Shown: one piece after another, positions 18,324 through 30,325 of the stretch
How the letters are laid out: each line of letters starts with the position of its first letter
Position numbering within the stretch: the first letter of the stretch is position 1
Assembly: GCF_900403705.1 (NCBI RefSeq)
Contig: NZ_OUNR01000012.1
Location: 434,001 to 498,000 of the forward strand
Source of the DNA: Nitrospira lenta
Lineage (GTDB): Bacteria; Nitrospirota; Nitrospiria; Nitrospirales; Nitrospiraceae
Direction of reading: 5' to 3'
Length of the DNA stretch: 64,000 nucleotides
Position numbers and translations under genes: made by a program
Notes under the pieces: generated by a model
Told to the model about the DNA's origin: nothing
Database searches by the model: none
What the model saw: the letters and a program-made list of their open reading frames with translations, nothing else

Positions 18324-19424
18324 ATGTCCAAGGAAACGATCGAAACGCTGGTCTCGGAGCTGGTCCATGAAGAGGATTGGCGGCGCATGCGGGCGACGGC
18401 GGCCTGTGTGGCCGGCGGACCCCGCGCCGTGCAAGCGCTGGTCGAAGCGCTTCGGACCGGGACGCCTGAGCTGAAAAAAGAAGTGGCGGCAATGTTGTCG
18501 CGCATCAAAGATCCGCAGGCCGGCGTGGCGCTGGTCGGTCTCCTGGAAGACGAAGATGAAGTGGTGCGGAAGGCGGGCGCTAATGCGTTAGAGCAGATGG
18601 CCGGGGTGCTCGATACCGACACCGCTGCGGCTCTAGTGGCGTTGCTTCCCAAATATCAAGAAGGCGAAGCGCGCCAGCTGATGACGCATCTGGTCGGGGC
18701 CATTCCGACGGCGGTCATTCCGCTGTGCGATATGTTGAAGCACCCGGATCCATCGGCACAGGTGACGGCCGCGTTGATGCTCGATCAGCTTCTGGATCCC
18801 CGCTCTATCGATGCGTTCATTGATGCGATGGGGCAGCCGGCGGTTCAGGATATTGCGGTCAGCACGTTGAAAAAGCTGAGCGCGATTCGTGAGCGGATCG
18901 ACGAGACATTCAACGCGCTTCGGGATGTGGAAGGGGCGAGTGAACGCGAAGAAGCGCGGATGTCGACGGTGATCTATCTCTTGGGCATCGGGCGGCCGAG
19001 CGTGGAAATTTTAATCGAATATCTTGAAGATGACGATTGGCTGGTGCGTGAAGCGGCGGCCGACTTGCTGGGAAAGATTGCGGATGTGCGGGCGGTTGAA
19101 CCGTTGATGCGGCGGCTGGAGCGCGACAAGGATACCGGCGTGAAGGAGTTGGCGATCAAGGCGCTGGGATTGATCGGCGACGCCCGTCCGACGCAACTCT
19201 ATCTGGAAGCGATTCCGATCCGGCCGCTCCGGGTGTATGCCATGGAGGCGCTGGCCAAGATTAAGGATGTGGAAGTGTTGCGTCCCCACAAGGAGCTCTT
19301 TGATCGGCTGCGGACGGACCGCGATGGGTTGGTGGCTTATAATGCCGGGCTGATCGCTGATAAACTCGAAGCCTTAGGCGGAACCGATATCACAGGTCAG
19401 GAAGGGAATCACGAGGATGAGTAA
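18324..19424 (+). CDS. HEAT-repeat protein, third of five
   Basis: A 366-residue protein. Repeats are more diverged in the first half (VSELVHEEDWRRMRATAACV, ALVGLLEDEDEVVRKAG) and regular in the second (LIEYLEDDDWLVREAAADLL). No signal peptide. A 132-base gap separates it from the second HEAT gene, so it may have its own promoter. Its last codons overlap the start of the fourth HEAT gene by eight bases, so those two are translationally coupled. A charged segment, DVEGASEREEARM, lies between repeats near residue 205. Confidence 0.85.
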   Translation: MSKETIETLVSELVHEEDWRRMRATAACVAGGPRAVQALVEALRTGTPELKKEVAAMLSRIKDPQAGVALVGLLEDEDEVVRKAGANALEQMAGVLDTDTAAALVALLPKYQEGEARQLMTHLVGAIPTAVIPLCDMLKHPDPSAQVTAALMLDQLLDPRSIDAFIDAMGQPAVQDIAVSTLKKLSAIRERIDETFNALRDVEGASEREEARMSTVIYLLGIGRPSVEILIEYLEDDDWLVREAAADLLGKIADVRAVEPLMRRLERDKDTGVKELAIKALGLIGDARPTQLYLEAIPIRPLRVYAMEALAKIKDVEVLRPHKELFDRLRTDRDGLVAYNAGLIADKLEALGGTDITGQEGNHEDE

Positions 19425-20181
19425 CGAGACAGAATCTGATCGGATTGATCTCCTCATTTCAGCATTGCGTGATGAGAATGAAGCGTTGCGCGATCACGCG
19501 ATCGCGAGTCTCGGGCAGATGGGGTCCGACGCCGTGCCGCGTTTGATCGGGTTGATGGCCGATGAAGATGTGGTCATTCGAGAGGCCGCGACGACGGCGG
19601 TGGTGCGGATCGGGCCCTCCGTAGTGGAGGCGCTTTTGGAGGCCCTGCAGGACGATGAGTGGGCGATTCGAGAGCAGGCCGCATCCGGGCTGGGCAAACT
19701 CAAAGACCCGCGCGCGGTTGAGCCGCTCGTGAAGGCACTCAAGGATAAAGATGGTGCCGTGCGGACGGCGGCGGTCTGGGCGCTGGAGCGAATCGGTGAT
19801 GCGCGTGCAGTTCCCGGGCTGGTCGATGTACTGGGCGACAATACCCTGCGGGAAGATGTTGCCCGCGTGTTGAAAAAAATCGGCGATGCACGCGCGGTGG
19901 ATGCGTTGATTGACGGACTCTTGGGCAATAATTGGATGGTGCGGCGCCATGCGGCAGAGGCATTGGGAAAGATCGGGGATCACCGCGGAGTCGGTCCGTT
20001 AATCGAATCATTGCAGGACGAAGATTGGCTGGTCAGACGGAATGCGGCGGAATCGCTGGCGCGGCTCGGGGCGAAGGAGGCGATTCAGCCGCTCTTGCCG
20101 CTACTGGAAGATGAAAATACGATGGTGCAAGAAACCGTCGAAGGTGTACTTGCGAGCTTGGGTTGGACAGCGAAACAGTAA
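19417..20181 (+). CDS. HEAT-repeat protein, fourth of five
   Basis: A 254-residue protein of about eight nearly perfect HEAT/PBS-lyase repeats (VEALLEALQDDEWAIREQAA, VEPLVKALKDKDGAVRTAAV, IESLQDEDWLVRRNAAESLA). The regularity is higher than in the other members, suggesting recent repeat amplification or strong constraint. It starts inside the end of the previous gene (ATGAGTAA overlap), a mark of translational coupling. Cytosolic, with no other domain. It could form a subcomplex with the third protein, but that is inference from coupling only. Confidence 0.87.
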   Translation: MSNETESDRIDLLISALRDENEALRDHAIASLGQMGSDAVPRLIGLMADEDVVIREAATTAVVRIGPSVVEALLEALQDDEWAIREQAASGLGKLKDPRAVEPLVKALKDKDGAVRTAAVWALERIGDARAVPGLVDVLGDNTLREDVARVLKKIGDARAVDALIDGLLGNNWMVRRHAAEALGKIGDHRGVGPLIESLQDEDWLVRRNAAESLARLGAKEAIQPLLPLLEDENTMVQETVEGVLASLGWTAKQ

Positions 20182-20219
20182 CGACTCATCTACCTTTTTA
20201 GAGAAGAAGGACATACGTT

Positions 20220-20927
20220 ATGGCTGATGAAGCACCGGTAAAGTTGATTCAGATCGGTCCGAAGGGCGGGGAAAAGAAAGACGGCTTCAACCTGGTGACG
20301 GAGCGGGTGGTGGCGATCAACCCCGAGGCCAAGCAGCTCGAAGTTGAATTGCTCGCCTACGATGGCAAGACGGTGGTCCTGGAAGTCGCCGAAGAGGCGC
20401 TTGAAGATCTCAAGAAGCTCAAGGTCGGTGACGGAGCGACTATCCGGGTTGTGGAAGAGGGTGGCAAGCGCGTCGCGAAGAGTTTCCGGATTCGTTCGAA
20501 AGATCCGAATGCGGCCAAAGCCGATGCCATGTTGCTGGATCTCAAGGATCCGCACTGGCTCAATCGGAAGTATGCGGCGGAAGTCCTGGGCGAGCTTAAG
20601 GACAGCCGCGCGGTGACGCCTCTGGTGGAAGCCTTGGTGGATGAGGTCGGTGATGTGCGGCAGCGCGCCTATGATTCGCTGATCAAGCTCGGCGGGATTT
20701 CGGTGTCCTCATTGGTGCCGTTGCTGGTGTCTGAAGAGGATGAAATCCGGCAATCGGCGACGGAAATTATTCGGAAGATCGGCAAACCTGCGGTGGAACC
20801 GTTGGCGACAGCGTTGACGGATGCCGACGATCGGTTGAAGACCCGGATTATGAAAGTGCTGGATCGGATGGGCTATAAGCCGAAGGCCAAGCAGGAGACC
20901 GGCGCTGAATTGCCCCGCTTGACCTAA
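20220..20927 (+). CDS. HEAT-repeat protein with a distinct N-terminal beta-rich domain, fifth of five
   Basis: A 235-residue protein. Residues 1-90 are not HEAT. They look like a small beta-barrel (RVVAINPEAKQLEVELLAYD, then GATIRVVEEGGKRVAKSFRI). Residues about 100-215 hold roughly four HEAT repeats (LLDLKDPHWLNRKYAAEVLG, LVPLLVSEEDEIRQSATEII). The C-terminus is basic. AAGGA precedes the ATG by a short spacer. It closes the five-gene HEAT series. A GC-rich hairpin follows between it and the convergent ugd gene. The N-terminal domain is unrecognised and might bind a ligand or nucleic acid. Confidence 0.8.
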   Translation: MADEAPVKLIQIGPKGGEKKDGFNLVTERVVAINPEAKQLEVELLAYDGKTVVLEVAEEALEDLKKLKVGDGATIRVVEEGGKRVAKSFRIRSKDPNAAKADAMLLDLKDPHWLNRKYAAEVLGELKDSRAVTPLVEALVDEVGDVRQRAYDSLIKLGGISVSSLVPLLVSEEDEIRQSATEIIRKIGKPAVEPLATALTDADDRLKTRIMKVLDRMGYKPKAKQETGAELPRLT

Positions 20928-20938
20928 ACTGCCGCCGA

Positions 20939-20960
20939 CCGCGGCCTAGGCAGGCCGCGG
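20939..20960. terminator. GC-rich hairpin between convergent genes
   Basis: A 9-bp perfect inverted repeat, CCGCGGCCT / AGGCCGCGG with a 4-base loop. It spans the ugd stop codon, just after the last HEAT gene. There is no T-run on either side, so it is not a standard intrinsic terminator. It may still pause or stabilise transcripts from both directions. Confidence 0.35.
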
Positions 20961-22268
20961 CTCTCTGGTGGGACGACCGACCGATACGTGGCGGAACCCG
21001 TGTCCCGTCACACGGTCGGAGTCGTAGACATTGCGCAGATCCAGCAGCAGCCTCTGCCGCATGGACTGTTTGAGCCGCTCGAAATCAAGGTTCCGGAACT
21101 GATTCCACTCGGTCATGATGATGAGCCCGTCGGCGTTCTCAGCCACATCGTAGGTTTCTTTGCATGGAATCATTCCGGGGATGAGCTTGGTGGCTTCTTC
21201 CATCGACACCGGGTCGTAGGCACGCACGGTGGCGCCTTCCTTCATAAGTTCTTTCAGGATCGTCAGAGACGGGGCCTCCCGCATATCATTCGTATTTGGC
21301 TTGAACGACAGTCCGAGCACCCCGAGGGTTTTCCCGGCGAGCCCGCCGCACGCTTCGCGGATTTTCGCAACCATTCGGAGGTGCTGCTCGTAGTTCACTT
21401 TGGCGGCTGCACCCGCAATTTGGAATGGGTAGCCCACGCGCTCACCGGTCTGGACCAGTGCCGCGAGGTCCTTGGGGAAGCAGGACCCACCGAATCCAGG
21501 CCCTGCGTGGAGAAACTTGCCGCCGATTCGATGATCCAGCCCCATGCCCTTGGAAACCAGTTGCACGTCCGCGCCGACGCGTTCACAGACCGTGGCCATC
21601 TCGTTGATGAACGAAATCTTGACGGCGAGAAAGGCGTTTGAGGCGTACTTGATCATTTCCGCTGTGGGGACGTCGGTGACGACAAAGGGCGTTTCAAGCA
21701 GGTAGAGCGGCCGATAGAGATCTTTCATGATGGCTGCGGCTTGATCGCTGTCGGCGCCGAGCACCACGCGGTTCGGACGCATGAAATCTTCAATCGCGGA
21801 TCCTTCGCGCAAGAATTCAGGGTTGGAGACGATGTCAAAATTAATCGGTTTCGTCTGGTGCTTTCGGATGACTTCCCGGAGTCGCTCGCCGGTTCCGACG
21901 GGGACGGTCGATTTGGTGACGATCACTTTATAGCCGGTCATGTGTGTGGCGATGCCACGGCCGACTTCCTCCACAAAGGATAGGTCAGCGGATCCATCGC
22001 TCTTCGGAGGAGTGCCCACGGCAATAAAGATGACCAACGCTTTATCGACAGCTTTGACGACATCTGTGGTGAAGCTCAGCCGGCCCTCTTTGATTCCTTT
22101 GGCCACCAATTCAGTGATGCCCGGCTCGAAAAATGGCACCTCTCCCTTTTCCAGCTTCTCAACCCGACGGGCATCGTTATCCATGCAGGTGACGTTGACC
22201 CCGAACTCTGCGAAGCAGGCTCCTGTGACAAGGCCGACGTAACCGGTTCCGATGACGCTGATATGCAT
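20946..22268 (-). CDS. ugd: UDP-glucose 6-dehydrogenase
   Basis: A 440-residue cytosolic enzyme that oxidises UDP-glucose to UDP-glucuronate with two NAD+. The N-terminal Rossmann motif is VIGTGYVGLVTGACFAEFG. The catalytic cysteine lies in GPGFGGSCFPKDLAAL, with the conserved EFLREGSAIEDFM and FLAVKISFINEMA segments. The C-terminal domain has LGLSFKPNTNDMREAPS. Length and motif order match the bacterial Ugd/TuaD family. The product is the substrate of the epimerase encoded at 4688-5710, so together they could supply UDP-galacturonate for surface glycans. The gene is monocistronic on the minus strand. Confidence 0.95.
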   Translation of the reverse strand: MHISVIGTGYVGLVTGACFAEFGVNVTCMDNDARRVEKLEKGEVPFFEPGITELVAKGIKEGRLSFTTDVVKAVDKALVIFIAVGTPPKSDGSADLSFVEEVGRGIATHMTGYKVIVTKSTVPVGTGERLREVIRKHQTKPINFDIVSNPEFLREGSAIEDFMRPNRVVLGADSDQAAAIMKDLYRPLYLLETPFVVTDVPTAEMIKYASNAFLAVKISFINEMATVCERVGADVQLVSKGMGLDHRIGGKFLHAGPGFGGSCFPKDLAALVQTGERVGYPFQIAGAAAKVNYEQHLRMVAKIREACGGLAGKTLGVLGLSFKPNTNDMREAPSLTILKELMKEGATVRAYDPVSMEEATKLIPGMIPCKETYDVAENADGLIIMTEWNQFRNLDFERLKQSMRQRLLLDLRNVYDSDRVTGHGFRHVSVGRPTREPRPA

Positions 22269-22450
22269 GAGATGATTTCTCCTTGGTAGCTAGGGTATTG
22301 GTGGAGCAAAGTATAGCAACGGATCAAACGGTGGGCAATGGAATGGCTAAAATCAGCTACTTAGTCTTCACGGTCGATTTCTCGGCGTTGACTCTTGGAA
22401 AATTGGTTGAGTAGAATCCGATACGTTTACCGAGATGGAGTATTGTTGCC

Positions 22451-22855
22451 GTGACTGCTCTAGGGATGCAGCGTCCGCTTGCCGTGATGATGCGGTCGTC
22501 CGCCCAAACGATTTCCCCGAATGCGACCGCCTGCGATGCTGCGCAACAAATGCGCGTGGCAAAAGTCGGGGCGCTCCTGGTTCGGGAAGGCATCTGCTAC
22601 ATTGGGATTATTAGTGAGGCGGATCTGGTTCGGAAAGTCCTGGCGGAGTCTCTGGTCCCCGCCGACATTCTTGTGCGGTCGGTCATGAGCGCCCCGCTGA
22701 TTACCATCGATATTACGGCTTCGGCCCATGAGGCTAGCGACGTGATGGCGCGCGCTGGTATTCGTCATCTGGCGGTCGTCGAAGGCGGAGAAGTGGCTGG
22801 AATTCTTTCCGTAAGAGATCTGCTGCTGTATTTCAAGAATTGGGGCCCTCAATGA
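22451..22855 (+). CDS. CBS-domain-pair protein
   Basis: A 134-residue stand-alone pair of CBS domains: SAQTISPNATACDAAQQMRV and GIISEADLVRKVLAE for the first, and APLITIDITASAHEASDVMA with EVAGILSVRDLLLYF for the second. Such pairs bind adenosine nucleotides and act as energy sensors when combined with a partner. The frame opens with GTG at 22451, with GGAG about 12 bases upstream. An ATG at 22466 is an alternative. No enzyme domain is attached. The neighbours give no clear partner. Confidence 0.85.
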   Translation: MTALGMQRPLAVMMRSSAQTISPNATACDAAQQMRVAKVGALLVREGICYIGIISEADLVRKVLAESLVPADILVRSVMSAPLITIDITASAHEASDVMARAGIRHLAVVEGGEVAGILSVRDLLLYFKNWGPQ

Positions 22856-22913
22856 TTCTCGCGGGGTTTTGCCTCCTTAGTCCTGGTCGACACCTACCTG
22901 TGCTGCCTCTTGC

Positions 22914-24461
22914 ATGACTGCTGAAGGAAGTCCTCCAATCTCGCGTGCGTTCCTCCTTTCCACCGCGCTGATCACCGGAGCGGTCGTGATGGCGCTTGAA
23001 ATTCTCGGCAGCCGTTTGCTCGCGCCTGTTTTTGGGAATTCCTTGTTCGTCTGGGGTGCGCTGATCGGAGTCATTCTTGCTGCGATGAGCAGCGGCTATG
23101 CCTTCGGTGGATGGGCATCGGATCGGTATGCGGGGGGAAGCGTACTCGCGGGGCTGCTGCTCTTTTCAGGGTCCTGGACTTTTCTCGTTGCCTGGGCCAG
23201 CCAACCGATTCTCTTTCAAGTGGATGCCTGGATACAGGATCCACGGTGGGGCCCGTGCCTGGCCGCCACGATCCTTCTGGCACCGCCTGCGTTTGGATTG
23301 AGCGGAGTTTTGCCGGCGATGTTGCGGTTGGCCGTCTCTGATATGGGGCATTTAGGGCGTCACACGGGCCGCATGATTGCCTTGTCAACCGTAGGGAGTT
23401 TGATTGGGACCTGGGGGACTGCGTTCTTTCTCCTTTCGTGGATTGGGAGCCAGGCGCTCGTGGCGTGGCTGGGAACCATTCAAGTCGCGCTGGGGCTATT
23501 GTGGCTTTGGCGCGGAGCCAAGGTGGGATTAATCGGGAAATTATTCGGGGTGGCGTGCAGTGGTCTATTTGTCGCACTGGCACTCCATCCTATTCAGAAA
23601 TTGAATCCGCCGGTTCATCAGGAGGATAGTCCCTATCAGCAAGTGCGGGTGCGGGATGACCAGTTGTTTCGGTATCTCGTGCTTGATCGTACCTTTCATG
23701 CAGTGATGTGGAAGGCCGATCCGCTTCCGTTGTTTCTGCCCTACAGCCAGCTCATGGTTGCATCATTGGCGTTGGTCGATCAGCCGCGCCGTGGATTGAT
23801 TTTGGGCCATGGCGGTGGCTCGCTGGCCAAGTGGCTGGCGCACTATTGGCCTGATCTGGAGATGGACATCATCGAGTTCGATCCGGTCGTGGTGCGGATG
23901 GCCGAGGACTACTTTGAGTATCGTCCTCCAGCCAATCACCATGTGCGGGTTAAGGACGGGCGGGCGTTCCTGAATACCACCGATCACCTCTACGATGTAA
24001 TTTGGATCGATGCCTTTGCCCGTCACATGATTCCATTTCATCTGACCACAAAGGAATTCTATGCGGCGGTGCGAACGCATCTGAAGCCGGATGGAGTGGT
24101 GGCGTTGAATTTAGCGTCATCCGGAGAAGAGCTCGATAACGCACGAGCGGCGGCTGTCGTCCAAACAATGCGCCGGGAGTTTCCTGTGATTGAAACATTT
24201 GCGGTTAAAGGGCCGTGGAAGAGCGGCCAGACCAAAGCGGAGAATTTGATTTTTTTTGCAGGAAGTCCGGTCACGGAGCATGGCCATGAAGCCTTCATCG
24301 AAAAAGTGACAGCGATGGCTATGAATCGACAGCTGCCCGGCGAGGCCGTTGCGTTGCTTGCTTCTCATCGGACTGATCCATGGCCAATGGGATTTGAATT
24401 GACCGACGATTTCGCTCCCTATGATGTTCTGATAGGGAAAGATGCGCCGGACGCACGGTAG
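22914..24461 (+). CDS. membrane-anchored spermidine-synthase-like protein
   Basis: A 515-residue fusion. Residues about 10-225 contain six to seven membrane segments (ALITGAVVMALEILGSRLLA opens the first). The C-terminal half is a PABS/spermidine-synthase-like methyltransferase fold, with GHGGGSLAKWLAHYWPDLE binding the nucleoside, DIIEFDPVVVRMA and YDVIWIDAFA. This fused MFS-like/spermidine-synthase architecture is common in bacteria, and its substrate is usually unproven. The usual polyamine-synthase D-x-x-E-V-x-R pattern is not evident. The start ATG has no ribosome binding site, so the exact N-terminus is unsure. Polyamine synthesis should not be assumed. Confidence 0.8.
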   Translation: MTAEGSPPISRAFLLSTALITGAVVMALEILGSRLLAPVFGNSLFVWGALIGVILAAMSSGYAFGGWASDRYAGGSVLAGLLLFSGSWTFLVAWASQPILFQVDAWIQDPRWGPCLAATILLAPPAFGLSGVLPAMLRLAVSDMGHLGRHTGRMIALSTVGSLIGTWGTAFFLLSWIGSQALVAWLGTIQVALGLLWLWRGAKVGLIGKLFGVACSGLFVALALHPIQKLNPPVHQEDSPYQQVRVRDDQLFRYLVLDRTFHAVMWKADPLPLFLPYSQLMVASLALVDQPRRGLILGHGGGSLAKWLAHYWPDLEMDIIEFDPVVVRMAEDYFEYRPPANHHVRVKDGRAFLNTTDHLYDVIWIDAFARHMIPFHLTTKEFYAAVRTHLKPDGVVALNLASSGEELDNARAAAVVQTMRREFPVIETFAVKGPWKSGQTKAENLIFFAGSPVTEHGHEAFIEKVTAMAMNRQLPGEAVALLASHRTDPWPMGFELTDDFAPYDVLIGKDAPDAR

Positions 24462-24552
24462 ACAGAGAAATCTTATATAAGCATCGAATTTATTTAAGCT
24501 TTCAAGCGAATTGCAAATAGAGCCATCGTTGCGTTCTATCCAGAGAAGCTGC

Positions 24553-24582
24553 TTGCTTCCATTTTGAGCCCTATGCTATAAG
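24553..24582 (+). promoter_or_regulatory. possible promoter of the cupredoxin gene
   Basis: TTGCTT and TATAAG are separated by 18 bases, and a TG lies just before the -10 (TGCTATAAG), giving an extended -10. It lies in the 264-base AT-richer gap upstream of the cupredoxin. The transcript would have a leader of about 135 bases. Nothing else recognisable is in that gap. Confidence 0.4.
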
Positions 24583-24725
24583 TTGCGCCTCGTGATGTAG
24601 CACATGTTGGCATAGGGTGTATGTGTGAGTGTCGGACGGCATCGGATCAGTCAAGGCTATCAGAGCTTGGCGGAAGTTATTTACCAACCTAATCACATCT
24701 CTTCTTCTTTTTAAGGAGGTAGGTC

Positions 24726-25202
24726 ATGGGCAAGACGATGTTATCGGTCCTCTTTGGCCTCGGGTTGAGCGTCGCTGGAGCCTCGGCTGCATTCGCACTC
24801 CAAGCCGGTGGCGTTGAGATCGGCGATCTCGAAACGGGATCGGTCGTAGGCCAGCCATTCAAGGAACTTGACGTGGATGCGTCATTCTATGCCATCGAAA
24901 TTGGCAATATGAAGACCTGGTATCCGCCGACGACGGTGATTGACTTCAAAAATCGCGCTGGAGCCCCAGTGCTTTTGAAAGTGACGAACAATTCGACTGC
25001 AGACCATGGCTTTCAACTCACGGCTGCTGTGAACCAGTCCGGTCCCTGGACCTTGAACACGACCTTGGTGCTCAAGCCTGGAGAGACCAAGTATATCGGT
25101 GTGCCGACGAGCGATCTGTTTTATGCGGCGGGCAACGTTCTTCAGTATCGCTGTCAGCTCCATCCGGCGCATGTCGGTGGCAAATTGGTGATGCTGAAGT
25201 AA
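24726..25202 (+). CDS. exported cupredoxin related to nitrosocyanin
   Basis: A 158-residue exported protein. A perfect AAGGAGGT ribosome binding site precedes the ATG, and the signal peptide ends near AAFALQ. The mature part is a cupredoxin fold. The C-terminal copper loop, YRCQLHPAHVGGKL, gives Cys143, His146 and His149. A further candidate ligand, His94, lies in TADHGFQL. From memory, nitrosocyanin of Nitrosomonas has the same WCQLHP loop and a KAGETKTI strand matching KPGETKYI here. Its Glu60 aligns with His94, and its second loop His lies at Cys+8 rather than Cys+6. The protein probably carries a copper site in the periplasm for electron transfer or NO-related chemistry. The function is not established. 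Confidence 0.8.
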   Translation: MGKTMLSVLFGLGLSVAGASAAFALQAGGVEIGDLETGSVVGQPFKELDVDASFYAIEIGNMKTWYPPTTVIDFKNRAGAPVLLKVTNNSTADHGFQLTAAVNQSGPWTLNTTLVLKPGETKYIGVPTSDLFYAAGNVLQYRCQLHPAHVGGKLVMLK

Positions 25203-25225
25203 TTTGCATCGACCATCGATTCGTG

Positions 25226-25266
25226 AAACGGCCTCCGGGGATCTTCCCCGGAGGCCGTTTTGTTTT
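25226..25266 (+). terminator. strong intrinsic terminator after the cupredoxin gene
   Basis: A 16-bp perfect stem (AAACGGCCTCCGGGGA and its complement) with a 3-base loop, followed by TTTTGTTTT. It lies 24 bases after the stop codon and ends the monocistronic cupredoxin transcript. It could also serve the convergent gene. Confidence 0.92.
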
Positions 25267-25286
25267 ACTGATTTGTATCCGCACAG

Positions 25287-25613
25287 TTAGGTTTCTTCAC
25301 GCAGGCAGTCCGCACCATCCTCAAGCGGCACGCGTTGAGCTGCAGCCAGTTTTCCCTCTCGGATGAGCAGTAGGTACCGGTTTTCAACCGGTGCAGGCAT
25401 CTGCTTCTCAAGGACCATGGTGCGAATGTCTACGACCATTTCATCTCCGTCCCATTCCGTACCGTTGACAATCCAGATATGGCTGGTAGCGTCAGGAAAG
25501 TGATGGACGATAAAACTTTCAATGATCGTCCCGAGCTCGCTTGTGCTGGCACTGCTGATGTTGGGGGTAAAGAGTGTGAGGGCTAGGGTGCTCAGTAACC
25601 AGAGCTGGCGCAT
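25287..25613 (-). CDS. small secreted hypothetical protein
   Basis: A 108-residue protein. GGAGGTG sits before the ATG and a signal peptide (RQLWLLSTLALTLFTPNISS) opens the frame. The mature part is about 85 residues with FIVHHFPDATSHIWIVNGTE and a single cysteine near the C-terminus. No family recognised. It is convergent with the cupredoxin gene and shares its terminator region. A role beside the cupredoxin is conceivable but unsupported. Confidence 0.6.
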   Translation of the reverse strand: MRQLWLLSTLALTLFTPNISSASTSELGTIIESFIVHHFPDATSHIWIVNGTEWDGDEMVVDIRTMVLEKQMPAPVENRYLLLIREGKLAAAQRVPLEDGADCLREET

Positions 25614-25765
25614 GACGACACCTCCAAGGGTGTGAGTGAGAGGCTGATAGCCGAGGAAAGGACCCTGGCTACACGACTACTCTACGCTCGGAACGATCAC
25701 AATTTCCAGATGTATGGATGGGGATAAATAGGGTGATGAATCGAGAAATAGCTGGATGGAATAAG

Positions 25766-25803
25766 AAGGCCTCGTCCCCCCTTGAGAGGACGAGGCCTTT
25801 TAT
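25766..25803 (-). terminator. hairpin downstream of the ferredoxin gene
   Basis: A 12-bp stem, AAGGCCTCGTCC / GGACGAGGCCTT, with a 10-base loop. The T-run is better on the plus strand (TTTTAT) than on the minus (TTCTTATT). No plus-strand gene ends here, so it most likely ends the minus-strand ferredoxin transcript. Confidence 0.7.
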
Positions 25804-25829
25804 CAGATTGGCTCGCAAGCAACGAGAGA

Positions 25830-26177
25830 TCAGTTCCGGACGCCGCTCCAGATCTTGCTCTTGTCGATGGCCTTGTCAGGGTTCAACGTTTTGGCCTTTT
25901 CCATTAAGACGTCCGTTGTCTCAGGATAGGCCGGATCGGAGATGCAGCAATTGTCGACCGGGCAGACCGCTGCGCACTGTGGTTCATCGAAGTGCCCGAC
26001 GCATTCCGTGCAGCGATCGTGGGTGATGATGTAGATGTTGTCCCCTACGCCCTGACCGTCGCCAACGTGATGGCCCTTGCCCTCCGCATCGCTCCGGGTT
26101 TCGAAAATCGCCTCGTTGGGACATTCAGGCAGGCAAGCCCCACAGGAAATGCATTCGTCGGTAATCAGCAGTGCCAT
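25830..26177 (-). CDS. YfhL-family 2[4Fe-4S] ferredoxin
   Basis: A 115-residue ferredoxin. The first cluster motif is CISCGACLPECP. The second comes from CTEC followed by an insertion, CAAVCP, as in YfhL and Allochromatium-type ferredoxins, which carry a loop between two cysteines and a C-terminal helix. AAGGAGG precedes the ATG. These carry low-potential electrons; in autotrophic Nitrospira a ferredoxin is needed for the reductive TCA cycle, but the partner here is not shown. The insertion region GKGHHVGDGQGVGDNIY between the clusters is longer than in minimal ferredoxins. Confidence 0.92.
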   Translation of the reverse strand: MALLITDECISCGACLPECPNEAIFETRSDAEGKGHHVGDGQGVGDNIYIITHDRCTECVGHFDEPQCAAVCPVDNCCISDPAYPETTDVLMEKAKTLNPDKAIDKSKIWSGVRN

Positions 26178-26217
26178 GACCCACGCCTCCTTCTCACTTC
26201 TGAGACAACAAACAATA

Positions 26218-26247
26218 TTGACAAGATCGCGCCGCCCCGACCATAGT
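26218..26247 (+). promoter_or_regulatory. possible promoter upstream of the DUF192 gene
   Basis: A consensus -35 TTGACA and a CATAGT -10 separated by 18 bases, in the gap between the divergent ferredoxin and DUF192 genes. The leader to the DUF192 ATG would be about 140 bases. Confidence 0.35.
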
Positions 26248-26396
26248 GCGTGCGCTGTGTGGAGGCCATTCTATTCTGTGATTCTTTTCTAAGTCAACAG
26301 AATGGCTTCCGGTCAGAAGGCCTAGAATTCACGGGAATATGGCCCATGAGACCCAGTCAGGCGTGCGAATATTTATTGACACCGAAGGCGAACGTT

Positions 26397-26897
26397 ATGG
26401 GTTTGACGCAGTCTCAAGGGAGCGATCGAGAGCAGAAAAAAAAGCGGATCATCATGATGATCCTGCTGGCGATTCTCTTAATGAGCGTGTCCATGTTTCT
26501 GGTGCCGCAGAAGGACACCGATGTCATTGTGGTGACCTTCCCTCGTGGCGAAACGATCGAAGCGGAAGTTGCAGAGACGCCGGAAAAGCTGCTGTTCGGG
26601 CTTGCGTTCCGTGAGCAGTTGCCGCCCAACACGGGGATGCTCTATATCTTTGAGTCCAACGGGCTCCATCGGGTTCGGACCAAGGAGTTTCGATTTCCGG
26701 TGGATATGATCTGGGTGGATGAGAGCCATCATGTGGTGCATACTGTTGAGGGAGCGAGTCCCTGCGAAAAGGACCCCTGTCCGTTCTTCGGTCCGCCGCC
26801 GGAGCCAGCGCGATATGTGTTACAAACGGAACCTGGATTGATCAAACGGTTTGGGGTTGCGAATGGGGACGAGTTGAAGTATTTCCTTCGGATGTAG
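26397..26897 (+). CDS. membrane-anchored DUF192 protein
   Basis: A 166-residue protein. After about 15 polar residues there is one membrane helix (RIIMMILLAILLMSVSMFLV), then a DUF192 domain. Domain marks are VEVAETPEKLLFGLAFRE (as EAEVAETPEKLLFGLAFREQ here), TGMLYIFESNG, FRFPVDMIWVD, and the cysteine pair CEKDPCP. DUF192 proteins are small exported or anchored beta-barrels of unknown function, widespread in bacteria. The frame is open upstream, but the ATG at 26397 gives the normal short cytosolic lead before the helix, with AAGG nine bases away. Confidence 0.8.
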   Translation: MGLTQSQGSDREQKKKRIIMMILLAILLMSVSMFLVPQKDTDVIVVTFPRGETIEAEVAETPEKLLFGLAFREQLPPNTGMLYIFESNGLHRVRTKEFRFPVDMIWVDESHHVVHTVEGASPCEKDPCPFFGPPPEPARYVLQTEPGLIKRFGVANGDELKYFLRM

Positions 26898-26960
26898 CTG
26901 CGTGCTGTGCTGGTGAGGGCATACGCGGTGCAGTTTCTGGAAAATAATTAGGGGACGGAT

Positions 26961-27278
26961 ATGGAGGGGTTCCAACGAGTCGCAGGATTGAACGAGGTCG
27001 CTCCAGGGCAATCGAAAGTCGTCAAGGTCAATGACAAGGCGATTGCCTTGTTCAATGTCGACGGCAAGTTCTTCGCGATTCATAATCTGTGTCCGCATGA
27101 AGGTGGGCCGCTGAACGAAGGTCGTTTGAAAGGATATGTGGTGGCCTGTCCCTGGCACGATCTGGCGTTCGATATTCGAAGTGGGCAGGGAACCGACGGC
27201 GGTGGGTATTGTATCGGGAGTTACGACGTTCGTGTCGAGGGAGGCGATATTTTTATCGGCCCCCGTCGAAAGGCATAA
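26961..27278 (+). CDS. Rieske [2Fe-2S] ferredoxin-like protein
   Basis: A 105-residue soluble Rieske protein. Cluster ligands are in CPHEGGPLNEG (Cys-x-His) and CPWHDLAFD (Cys-x-x-His), the classic C-x-H ... C-x-x-H set. The size and the FAIHNLCPHEG context match biphenyl-dioxygenase-type ferredoxins and the NirD-like small subunit. No catalytic subunit is adjacent. AGGGGACG precedes the ATG. It is followed by a chagasin-like gene and an aminotransferase in the same direction, but there is no obvious shared pathway. It could supply electrons to a distant oxygenase. Confidence 0.88.
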   Translation: MEGFQRVAGLNEVAPGQSKVVKVNDKAIALFNVDGKFFAIHNLCPHEGGPLNEGRLKGYVVACPWHDLAFDIRSGQGTDGGGYCIGSYDVRVEGGDIFIGPRRKA

Positions 27279-27331
27279 AAGGCATCGAGGTGGATTGAGG
27301 GGGCGGTGGCCTATGGCGCTGATGGGCAGTC

Positions 27332-27676
27332 ATGAATAGTGTAGGACAGGATATGGCGGGTCCCTCGGAAGGGCAAGAGAGGCGTACCATCGAAGCCGTC
27401 ATCGGGCAGGTATTTACTATTCATTTGTGGGAAGACCGTACCCGCGGTGAGCAATGGGTTCCGAGCTACAACACCAAGGCGTTGACCCTTGTGGATGATC
27501 AGTTTCTCCGAATCGCCAGTAATAACGCGGTTGAAAATGGTCAGCGCACGTTCGAATTTCAGGGGATGCTGCCTGGGGCTCATGAAATACTGTTTGAGAA
27601 ACGCATGGGGTGGAAATTCACGTCGGAAGATCGTCGGGTATTTCTGATCCAGGTCGCACCGGTTGGGAAAGGCTAA
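27332..27676 (+). CDS. chagasin-like (I42) protease-inhibitor-fold protein
   Basis: A 114-residue protein with the immunoglobulin-like pattern of the I42 inhibitor family. GQVFTIHLWEDRTRGEQWVP aligns with the F-x-I-x-L ... N-P-T-T-G-Y-x-W loop. LVDDQFLRIASNN and FEFQGMLPGAHEILFEKR follow the later strands. The inhibitory NPTTGY loop is changed to DRTRGEQ, so cysteine-protease inhibition is uncertain. No signal peptide is seen, unlike most family members. An alternative ATG at 27353, preceded by AGGACAGG, would shorten it by seven residues. It lies 5 bases before the aminotransferase start. Confidence 0.6.
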   Translation: MNSVGQDMAGPSEGQERRTIEAVIGQVFTIHLWEDRTRGEQWVPSYNTKALTLVDDQFLRIASNNAVENGQRTFEFQGMLPGAHEILFEKRMGWKFTSEDRRVFLIQVAPVGKG

Positions 27677-27681
27677 TTGTC

Positions 27682-28536
27682 GTGCCGGATATTGCATTTA
27701 TCAATGGGCGATTCCTTCCCTGGCATGAGGCCACCGTACCGATCGAAGATCGTGGGTTCCAGTTCGGCGACGGCGTGTATGAAGTCATCAGGACCTATCG
27801 CGGCCGCCCCTTTGAGTTGGATGCGCACCTCAACCGGCTTGACCGTAGTGCGCATGAACTGAGTCTGATTCAGCCCTATACGAGAGCGCAGTGGACCGAA
27901 TGGATTCAGCAGGGTATTCGGGCGGCTGGATATGCTGAAGCGAAGGTCTATCTCCAGATTACCCGCGGGGTCGCGGCGAGAGATCACGTGTTTCCGCCAA
28001 ACGTGGCTCCGACAGTGGTGATGACGATTCGTGAGCTGGCCTCGTTTCCGGCGAAGACCAGAGAGACCGGCGTCATTACCAAGACCTGTGAGGATTTGCG
28101 CTGGGGGCGTTGTGACATTAAGAGTGTGAATTTATTGGCGAATGTATTGGCTCGGGAAGAGGCCAAGCGGGCCGGCGTGTTTGAGGCCATCCTGGTGAAA
28201 GAGGGGCTGGTCACGGAAGGGTCGGTGAGTAATGTGATGGTGGTTCAATCGGGAGCCGTGGTGACTGCTCCTGAAGGCCCGCGCATTCTCTCAGGGGTGA
28301 CCCGCACGGTCGTTTTGGAGTTGGCAAGGGCTGCTGGGATTCCGATACGCGAAGAGTTCCTGACGGTGGAGTCTCTCTATACCGCCGATGAAGTGTTTCT
28401 CACCGGGACGACCGTGGAAGTCCTCGCGGTGGTTCAGGTGGATGGGCGGACGATCGGCACCGGTCGACCTGGGCCGGTTGTAAAGGCGCTGGCCTCTCGC
28501 TGGGCGGCCTTGACGGGGGAATCCCCCTTGCTTTGA
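27682..28536 (+). CDS. class IV aminotransferase (D-amino acid or branched-chain type)
   Basis: A 284-residue PLP enzyme of fold type IV. FINGRFLPWHEATVPIEDRG opens it, GFQFGDGVYEVIRTY carries the phosphate-binding region, and CDIKSVNLLANVLAREEAKR contains the PLP lysine. EGSVSNVMVV and the late FLTGTTVEVLAV complete the set. Spacing and the CDIKS motif favour D-amino acid aminotransferase (making D-glutamate/D-alanine for the wall), but branched-chain or aminodeoxychorismate lyase activity cannot be excluded. The GTG start follows AAAGG and agrees with the family N-terminus. A strong terminator ends the transcript before rimP. Confidence 0.87.
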   Translation: MPDIAFINGRFLPWHEATVPIEDRGFQFGDGVYEVIRTYRGRPFELDAHLNRLDRSAHELSLIQPYTRAQWTEWIQQGIRAAGYAEAKVYLQITRGVAARDHVFPPNVAPTVVMTIRELASFPAKTRETGVITKTCEDLRWGRCDIKSVNLLANVLAREEAKRAGVFEAILVKEGLVTEGSVSNVMVVQSGAVVTAPEGPRILSGVTRTVVLELARAAGIPIREEFLTVESLYTADEVFLTGTTVEVLAVVQVDGRTIGTGRPGPVVKALASRWAALTGESPLL

Positions 28537-28567
28537 GGGGGGGGCCATGTTAATGTGCCGTCGCTGG

Positions 28568-28591
28568 AAGTGGGCTCAGGCCCACTTTTTT
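28568..28591 (+). terminator. intrinsic terminator before rimP
   Basis: An 8-bp stem, AAGTGGGC / GCCCACTT, with a TCAG loop, followed by TTTTTT. It separates the aminotransferase unit from the rimP-pnp operon. The rimP ATG lies 11 bases after it. Confidence 0.85.
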
Positions 28592-28601
28592 GTTTGGGCA
28601 G

Positions 28602-29120
28602 ATGTACGCAGTGTCAGAGGATATCGCGTTGAGCATTCCGGAGCATGGATCCCGGTCTTCCATTGATCGGATTCAGGACATTCTTTCTCCGATTCTCTGG
28701 ACACTAGGGTTGGAATTAGTGGACGTGGTGTGTGTCGGGCAAGGTTCCCGATCCGTTGTCCGAGTGCTGATCGACAAGCCAGGCGGTGTGACCGTTTCTG
28801 ATTGTGAGCGGGCCCATTTGGCCGTAGGTCCCGCACTGGATGTTGCCGATCCATTTCCACATACCTATACGCTAGAAGTGTCATCACCCGGGCTTGACCG
28901 CCCGTTCAAGCGGCTCCAAGACTATCAGCGTGCGGTCGGGAAGCGGGTGAGCGTCAAGCTGAAGCAGCCGCGTGACGGCCAATGGCGTATTATCGGAGAA
29001 TTGGTGGAGGCGGATGAGGACTTGGTCGTTTTGTCGATCGCGTCGAAAGCCGCCACGACGGACACAGTGAAACTGGATCGCCACTCTATCGCGGAGGCCC
29101 GGCTAGTGATTGAGATGTAG
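28602..29120 (+). CDS. rimP: ribosome maturation factor RimP
   Basis: A 172-residue protein needed for 30S subunit maturation. The N-terminal domain holds LGLELVDVVCVGQGSRSVVR and VLIDKPGGVTVSDCERA. TYTLEVSSPGLDRPFKRLQD is the strongest family motif. The C-terminal SH3-like domain (VGKRVSVKLKQPRDGQWRII) binds ribosomal protein. It starts the conserved rimP-nusA-infB order. A TTG upstream is in frame inside the terminator tail, so the ATG at 28602 is preferred. Confidence 0.93.
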   Translation: MYAVSEDIALSIPEHGSRSSIDRIQDILSPILWTLGLELVDVVCVGQGSRSVVRVLIDKPGGVTVSDCERAHLAVGPALDVADPFPHTYTLEVSSPGLDRPFKRLQDYQRAVGKRVSVKLKQPRDGQWRIIGELVEADEDLVVLSIASKAATTDTVKLDRHSIAEARLVIEM

Positions 29121-29173
29121 TCGATGGCCAGGAGTGGTTGCAGTCCCGCACGGTCGAGCAGGAGTCTAAATTT

Positions 29174-30325
29174 ATGAACCGAGAATTAATCGCAGTCATC
29201 GATGAGATTGGACGCCAGAAAGGCATCGACAAATCCCGCGTTATTGGGGCCATCGAGTCCGCTCTCCAGACTGCCGCCAAAAAGCGCTTCGGGCAGGCGG
29301 AGAACATTCAAGTCGAGATCGACTCCAAGACCGGCGAGATTTCCGTAGTCTCGAAGAAGACGATCGTCGATCACGTGAGCAATCCGAAGGCGGAAATCTC
29401 GCTTCAGGAAGCGCGCCAACTTGATAGTGAAGCGGAAGTGGGAGACGAGATCGGCTCGCTCATCGAAATGGACGAGCTCGGTCGGATCGCGGCGCAGACG
29501 GCGAAGCAGGTTATTTTTCAAAAGGTGCGCGAAGCCGAGTGGGAAGCCGTTCAGAAAGAATACTCGACCAGGCAGGGCGACCTCGTCAATGGCATTATCC
29601 TCGGCATGGAACGCCGGAATTATCTGGTAGATCTTGGTAAGACCGAAGCCGTCTTGCCGATTCAGGAGCAGATCCCACGCGAGACGTATCGGCGTGGCGA
29701 CCGGGTCAAGGCGATGCTGTTGGAAGTCCGTCGGACGCCGAAAGATGTGCAGGTCATTCTGACGCGGAGCCATCCCCAATTCGTCTCGAAGCTGTTTGAG
29801 TTGGAAGTGCCGGAAGTCATGGAAAAGATCGTGGAGATCAAGTCGATCGTCAGAGAGCCTGGCGATCGCACGAAGATCGCGGTCACCTCGCGTGAGAAGG
29901 CGGTGGATCCGGTCGGCGCCTGTGTCGGTATTAAGGGATCGCGTGTGCAGGCGGTAGTTCGTGAGTTGCGCGGCGAGAAGATTGATATCATCACCTGGAC
30001 GCAGGACCCGCGCGTGTTTATTGCGGAGGCGCTGAATCCGGCCACGATTGAAAAAGTCGGCATCGACGACGAGAAGAAGTCGGCGCTGGTCGTGGTGGCT
30101 GATTCACAGCTGTCGTTGGCAATCGGGAAGAACGGGCAGAACGTGCGGTTGGCGGCTCGGTTGACCGGGTGGAAGATCGATATCATCAGCGCGACGGAGT
30201 ACGAAAAAGAAAAAGTAGAGCGCGACAAGGAAATTAAAGCGGCGATGGCCGATGAGGCTGAAGCGCAGCGATTGCAGGAAGAGGCCCGGCAAGCCGCCAG
30301 GGCTGAAGAAAACGAATCGAACTAG
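29174..30325 (+). CDS. nusA: transcription termination/antitermination factor NusA
   Basis: A 383-residue RNA-polymerase-associated factor. Domains in order are an N-terminal polymerase-binding domain (NRELIAVIDEIGRQKGID), an S1 domain with GDLVNGIILGMERRNYLVDL, KH1 (REPGDRTKIAVTSREKAVDP), and KH2 with LAIGKNGQNVRLAARLTGWK. The acidic repeats found at the end of E. coli NusA are absent, as in most bacteria outside gamma-proteobacteria. The C-terminus is a charged helix. AGGAG lies before the ATG. The gene is second in the rimP-nusA-infB operon. Confidence 0.95.
   Translation: MNRELIAVIDEIGRQKGIDKSRVIGAIESALQTAAKKRFGQAENIQVEIDSKTGEISVVSKKTIVDHVSNPKAEISLQEARQLDSEAEVGDEIGSLIEMDELGRIAAQTAKQVIFQKVREAEWEAVQKEYSTRQGDLVNGIILGMERRNYLVDLGKTEAVLPIQEQIPRETYRRGDRVKAMLLEVRRTPKDVQVILTRSHPQFVSKLFELEVPEVMEKIVEIKSIVREPGDRTKIAVTSREKAVDPVGACVGIKGSRVQAVVRELRGEKIDIITWTQDPRVFIAEALNPATIEKVGIDDEKKSALVVVADSQLSLAIGKNGQNVRLAARLTGWKIDIISATEYEKEKVERDKEIKAAMADEAEAQRLQEEARQAARAEENESN

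Follow-up and report, generated by a model that had tools for sequence, protein, structure and literature searches.

A nitrosocyanin-related cupredoxin with a predicted His3Cys copper site in nitrite-oxidising Nitrospirales

Which metal site would a relative of nitrosocyanin possess when its ligands are changed, and what would such a protein do in a nitrite oxidiser? These questions are raised by a reading frame of 158 codons at positions 24726 to 25202 (+ strand) of the window, a stretch of 64,000 nucleotides from Nitrospira lenta. A first-pass annotation had described its product as a nitrosocyanin-like cupredoxin with changed ligands. The frame, which is open throughout, starts with an ATG preceded by AAGGAGG and would encode a secreted protein of 158 aa with the cupredoxin fold, related to nitrosocyanin and reading in part ...STADHGFQL...LVLKPGETKYIGV...LQYRCQLHPAHVGGKL... 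Residues 1 to about 26 (24726 to 24803, + strand) probably constitute a Sec signal peptide, as judged from the sequence and from helix 2-26, which is hydrophobic in the AF2 model.

Strong expression signals had also been ascribed to the gene, and this remark stands only in part because its codon usage is average (codon adaptation 0.545, window mean 0.544), which leaves high expression judged from codon usage unsupported. In its favour, a promoter-like element on the + strand (24553 to 24582) consists of TTGCTT (24553 to 24558), an 18-nt spacer and TATAAG (24577 to 24582); the upstream alignment of 18 Nitrospira relatives shows TTGCTTC to be conserved and GCTATAA to be kept in most rows, and we infer that this element is the promoter of the cupredoxin gene. 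The consensus ribosome-binding site AAGGAGG (24713 to 24719, + strand), 6 nt before the ATG, is kept in most of the aligned upstream regions, and folding gives a strong Rho-independent terminator hairpin (25225 to 25261, + strand) of 17 bp with a 3-nt loop and, after it, a T-rich tail, the segment 25222 to 25265 having a folding energy of -34.6 kcal/mol. A generic scan for promoter and terminator consensus, on the other hand, gave no call on the + strand and missed both the TTGCTT-18-TATAAG element and the hairpin.

Searched by itself, the 158-aa protein (P0001) matches nothing significantly in Pfam, NCBIfam or among PDB sequences, and its link to nitrosocyanin is therefore transitive, through positional orthologues. 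Such orthologues in family f2 (L112, L113 and L115) are 126-131 aa long and lie in the same gene order as the N. lenta locus, and the only one tested, L112, scores 29 bits (7.5e-7) with the nitrosocyanin model of NCBIfam, whose cut-off is 142.85. A second f2 type, with the loop CQLHPKH, matches nitrosocyanin 1iby in phmmer (2.1e-6), and the class-level relatives L198 and L199 match the nitrosocyanin model TIGR03096 at 5e-12 and 2e-13, respectively. Against the PDB, profile A1 gives nitrosocyanin at 5.2e-7 and the next cupredoxin at 0.49, and a diverse profile of 12 members, with the syntenic orthologue and relatives at class level among them, ranks nitrosocyanin 1iby first (2.3e-15), ahead of Bacillus Cupredoxin_1 (1.3e-8) and NosZ (0.0027). 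Nitrosocyanin is here 22 bits above Cupredoxin_1, over an alignment that takes in the C-terminal two thirds of the domain and so more than the loop. In addition, hhalign of the family with nitrosocyanin gives a probability of 99.1%, E 9.7e-19 and 36% identity over 73 columns. Because of these phmmer, model, profile and hhalign scores, nitrosocyanin is, as judged by sequence, the closest relative of solved structure. Foldseek places nitrosocyanin at all of ranks 1-4 for the AF2 model (pLDDT 82); in VIA-align the model superposes on nitrosocyanin with Z 10.8 (2.0 A, 91 residues, 28% identity), but Bacillus Cupredoxin_1 reaches Z 11.3, which amounts to a tie. The kinship claimed at first thus holds by sequence, where no plastocyanin-like protein is closer, while by structure nitrosocyanin and Cupredoxin_1 are level; the phrase "nitrosocyanin with changed ligands" is right as to the relatedness and the differing ligands, but the protein is better read as belonging to a sister family that is core in nitrite-oxidising Nitrospirales.

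The residues on which that phrase was based had been read correctly. The CQLHP loop and the strand KPGETKYI are present, and the nitrosocyanin PDB chain has CQLHPKNIH and KAGETKTI at the equivalent places. The predicted copper ligands, all invariant and on the + strand, are His94 (codon 25005 to 25007), which stands in the same column of the profile alignments as Glu60 of nitrosocyanin, Cys143 (25152 to 25154), aligned with Cys95, His146 at Cys+3 (25161 to 25163), aligned with His98, and the predicted axial ligand His149 at Cys+6 (25170 to 25172), aligned across a two-residue gap with His103, which in nitrosocyanin is at Cys+8 (nitrosocyanin residue numbers are our own count on the printed PDB chain). 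The predicted set, four His/Cys candidates without Glu, would accordingly differ from that of nitrosocyanin, as had been proposed. The four residues do not vary among the ligand-bearing sequences of the initial set (90, or 89 owing to one incomplete row), and the match of ligand positions is not due to chance because they are invariant across ligand-bearing relatives in alignments down to 24-39% identity. Directly after Cys the N. lenta protein has Gln, whereas 100 of 117 distinct relatives have His, most relatives having a His-rich CHLHPxH loop.

In amicyanin the loop is C-x2-H-x2-ligand with Met as the last ligand, and the N. lenta protein has this Cys-x2-His-x2-ligand spacing with His for Met. 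Among the VIA-align matches is 1a4a, the engineered azurin M121H, whose His2Cys site has His as its axial residue. Neither amicyanin nor azurin M121H, the latter man-made, has specific sequence kinship to the Nitrospirales family. M121H azurin, with its axial Met-to-His change, is described as having a type 1.5 site in the title of a paper that PMC4059628 cites. By this analogy, the N. lenta protein would be expected to possess a mononuclear His3Cys site with copper as the metal, type 1.5 (green) or type 2-like and rather low in potential. No earlier description of a predicted His3Cys cupredoxin of Nitrospira was found in the freely accessible main texts searched.

The N. lenta genome also contains a paralogue of 67% identity (G000:C1:758910-759383; L002, L156) in which all four predicted ligands are replaced: His94 by Arg, Cys143 by Asp, His146 by Asn and His149 by a non-His residue. 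Many other genomes carry such a ligand-less paralogue (Arg, Asp, usually Asn, non-His); those of family f1, read in many Nitrospira genomes, have the same Arg94/Asp143 pair, with His at the third position in a few, and two f3 paralogues have other residues at the ligand positions. In a third paralogue group (L194, L195, L196, L197 and L206 5345-5917), the first His is Gln and the Cys is Asn or Ser, while the last loop His is kept. Paralogue loci share a Slp-like lipoprotein gene as neighbour, some of them a TPR gene as well, and despite these shared neighbours the tree needs three changes between the ligand-bearing and ligand-less states. Gene conversion between the copper-type and ligand-less paralogues is not claimed: at third positions, two copies from one genome are 29-53% identical, a range that overlaps the 40-49% seen between lineages. 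Because ligand-less paralogues exist, the cupredoxin fold has uses without copper; such uses make conservation alone a weaker proof of redox function, but the contrast at the ligand positions becomes sharper.

The conserved gene order is HEAT repeats, UDP-glucose dehydrogenase (UGDH), CBS protein, cupredoxin, ferredoxin, DUF192, I42 inhibitor and aminotransferase (BCAT), and in one f2 locus RimP and NusA are also in conserved order. From the HEAT repeats to NusA (19417 to 30325 of the window), this order is kept across much of the Nitrospirales, although no function shared by these genes is evident. The conserved neighbours of the cupredoxin gene include no amo, hao, nir or other nitrogen gene, and no respiratory or copper-transport gene. 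Two f2 copies (L116 and L117) are fused to about 300 additional C-terminal residues.

Profile A1 matches 147 of the 151 high-quality Nitrospirales genomes, and in the phylum sample matches occur in the class Nitrospiria only; the orthologue of N. moscoviensis lies at about 4.23 Mb in NZ_CP011801. Among 20 Nitrospirales genomes, picked so as to include those without the cupredoxin, the profile and NxrA both match in 12, neither matches in 6 and one only in 2 (one each way), giving a Fisher p of 0.001 that is inflated by kinship; in this count the "present" class mixes the syntenic type and the f2 CQLHPKH type, G060 is scored absent, its single copy being ligand-poor, and NxrA of G022 is scored from a stretch of 46 residues, an NxrB-like match being found there as well. 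Family f4 (G037, G040, G043 and G046) has neither an NxrA match nor a ligand-bearing protein. In G060, a genome of 99% completeness, there is a ligand-poor paralogue only and no NxrA match. Short class-level relatives are also found without NxrA. AMO has no match in the N. lenta genome, and of the 59 genomes searched 39 give none either, the majority of these carrying the cupredoxin; a comammox-specific role is rejected because the gene occurs both with and without AMO. Because its presence follows NxrA and AMO is absent from the N. lenta genome, the Nitrospirales form is associated with the oxidation of nitrite and not with that of ammonia, and is a core gene of nitrite-oxidising Nitrospirales. 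N. lenta itself has two NxrA genes (G000:C3:1353-3191 and C12:1819-3120) near contig starts, one of which overruns the contig end; no NarH-like NxrB was found in this genome, perhaps owing to an assembly break at the repeated nxr genes. In the main-text passages found in Nitrospira transcript and proteome papers, the cupredoxin gene is unnamed.

The best explanation, which we hold to be fairly probable, is that the protein is periplasmic, consists of one cupredoxin domain for which a mononuclear copper site of the His3Cys kind is predicted, and belongs to a sister family of nitrosocyanin in nitrite-oxidising Nitrospirales. His94, Cys143 and His146 would lie in the usual plane and His149 would replace the axial Met, and the protein would carry single electrons for the periplasmic chemistry of nitrite oxidisers, not for ammonia oxidation. 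Electron transfer is the first choice of role, at about an even chance; a low-potential site, if such it is, would be ill-suited to accept electrons from nitrite, a high-potential donor. The explanation draws on the predicted fold, the invariant ligands, the kinship, the conserved synteny and the joint occurrence with NxrA. Counted against it are the transitive link, the structural tie with Cupredoxin_1, the neighbours and the short relatives without NxrA. To some role besides electron transfer, NO or nitrite chemistry and copper handling only a slight chance is given.

Of the other explanations, the one that survives best, though unlikely, is chemistry or buffering of NO or nitrite at copper, as proposed for nitrosocyanin, and the protein could then be the missing NO oxidoreductase of comammox Nitrospira. 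Nitrosocyanin is the nearest solved relative, the protein occurs in AMO-bearing and AMO-free Nitrospira alike, and comammox Nitrospira are without nitrosocyanin (ncyA), so that another NO oxidoreductase is needed, which has been left open (PMC6478695). However, the gene is core in nitrite oxidisers without AMO too, no amo, hao or nir is among its conserved neighbours, the axial Glu of nitrosocyanin is not kept, and its water site is not to be assumed. A broader version is a long shot: Nitrospiria would retain the intermediate that gave rise to nitrosocyanin's red copper site, on a path from His-Cys-His-Met through His-Cys-His-His to Glu-Cys-His-His, and in comammox organisms and nitrite oxidisers the Nitrospirales form would do with NO or nitrite what nitrosocyanin has been proposed to do. 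Even so, a sister family that is present in nearly all Nitrospirales and tracks NxrA would offer a concrete NO oxidoreductase candidate for comammox.

It is also rather doubtful that the protein is a periplasmic copper carrier or store with Cu(I) bound by the invariant Cys and His. The His-rich CHLHPxH loop of most relatives and the near-ubiquity of a gene that has a promoter-like element and a terminator to itself would suit such a function, but the gene has no link to copper transport genes, three of the four ligands sit at rigid type 1 site positions and the fold ranks among redox cupredoxins. It is improbable that an ordinary cupredoxin for electron transfer, of Cupredoxin_1/plastocyanin type, resembles nitrosocyanin here by convergence of the loop only: the VIA-align tie and a class-level relative matching PF13473 at 57 bits (cut-off 27) point that way, but the profile prefers nitrosocyanin by its 22 bits in the C-terminal two thirds, which extend beyond the loop, and axial Met is absent from the aligned family.

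A His3Cys cupredoxin of a sister family thus remains the preferred reading, and it can be set beside the known systems. At the curated cut-off of TIGR03096 (142.85 bits) P0001 has no match, the best relatives reach 29-50 bits and no genome among the 39 searched is above it. The Cys-x2-His loop (Cys143/His146) and, in the model, a cupredoxin fold resembling 1iby are features of nitrosocyanin, but nitrosocyanin proper is excluded by the score below the cut-off, by the absence of Glu60 and by the second loop His at Cys+6, not Cys+8. A blue copper protein of the plastocyanin/azurin type (PF00127) is excluded by the lack of an axial Met, His149 being there and the aligned family loop having no Met. 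For PF13473, with a gathering cut-off of 27 bits, P0001 has no match, the syntenic orthologue scores 26.1 and a class-level relative 57.2. A TIGR03096 match elsewhere in the N. lenta genome (C1:131514) is a different cupredoxin with a loop ending in Met (PHNF ... YCDKRLWPLPSHRDKGMEG); the matches of a plasmid search outside Nitrospirota include annotated NosZ genes, and the one in Neisseria is a short cupredoxin-domain ORF which resembles the NosZ CuA domain. The protein would therefore represent a sister family of nitrosocyanin, in which His occupies both the canonical cupredoxin position and the place that the axial Met holds in blue copper proteins.

Cupredoxin_1 (PF13473; Bacillus anthracis 4hcf) shares with this family the fold (Z 11.3) and the place of the first His (EHTF vs EHGF), but its sequence score (1.3e-8) is weaker than that of nitrosocyanin and its axial ligand is Met, where the Nitrospirales family has His. 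Two cupredoxin-like proteins are encoded in the NXR gene cluster of Nitrospira, Nitrospina and Kuenenia and have been proposed as copper carriers for nitrite oxidation (PMC3578206); those are described as lying inside a cluster of NXR and a bd-like oxidase, whereas the N. lenta gene lies near rimP-nusA.

Nitrosocyanin (NcyA, TIGR03096; PDB 1iby, 1ibz and 1ic0; Nitrosomonas europaea) shares the cupredoxin fold, the C-x-L-H-P start of the loop and a second loop His, and the strand VKEVIKPGE/VQEVIKAGE is common to it and the shorter relatives. Its site, termed His2CysGlu (PMC9241007), is square-pyramidal and built from a Cys, two His and a water with Glu as the axial ligand, and it has an S(Cys)-Cu band near 390 nm and a type 2 EPR signal (PMC3603459), and it is the only red cupredoxin studied in detail (PMC4059628). 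The Nitrospirales family, which is a likely relative for it, differs in a 9-residue insert after the HGF strand, in an extra conserved N-terminal segment and in a loop that is two residues shorter, with the second His at Cys+6 instead of Cys+8. If the His3Cys site is real, nature would have supplied both it and paralogues without the ligands, a test case for how the ligands of cupredoxins set colour and potential, and this in a family found in nitrite oxidisers, whereas the red nitrosocyanin belongs to ammonia oxidisers.
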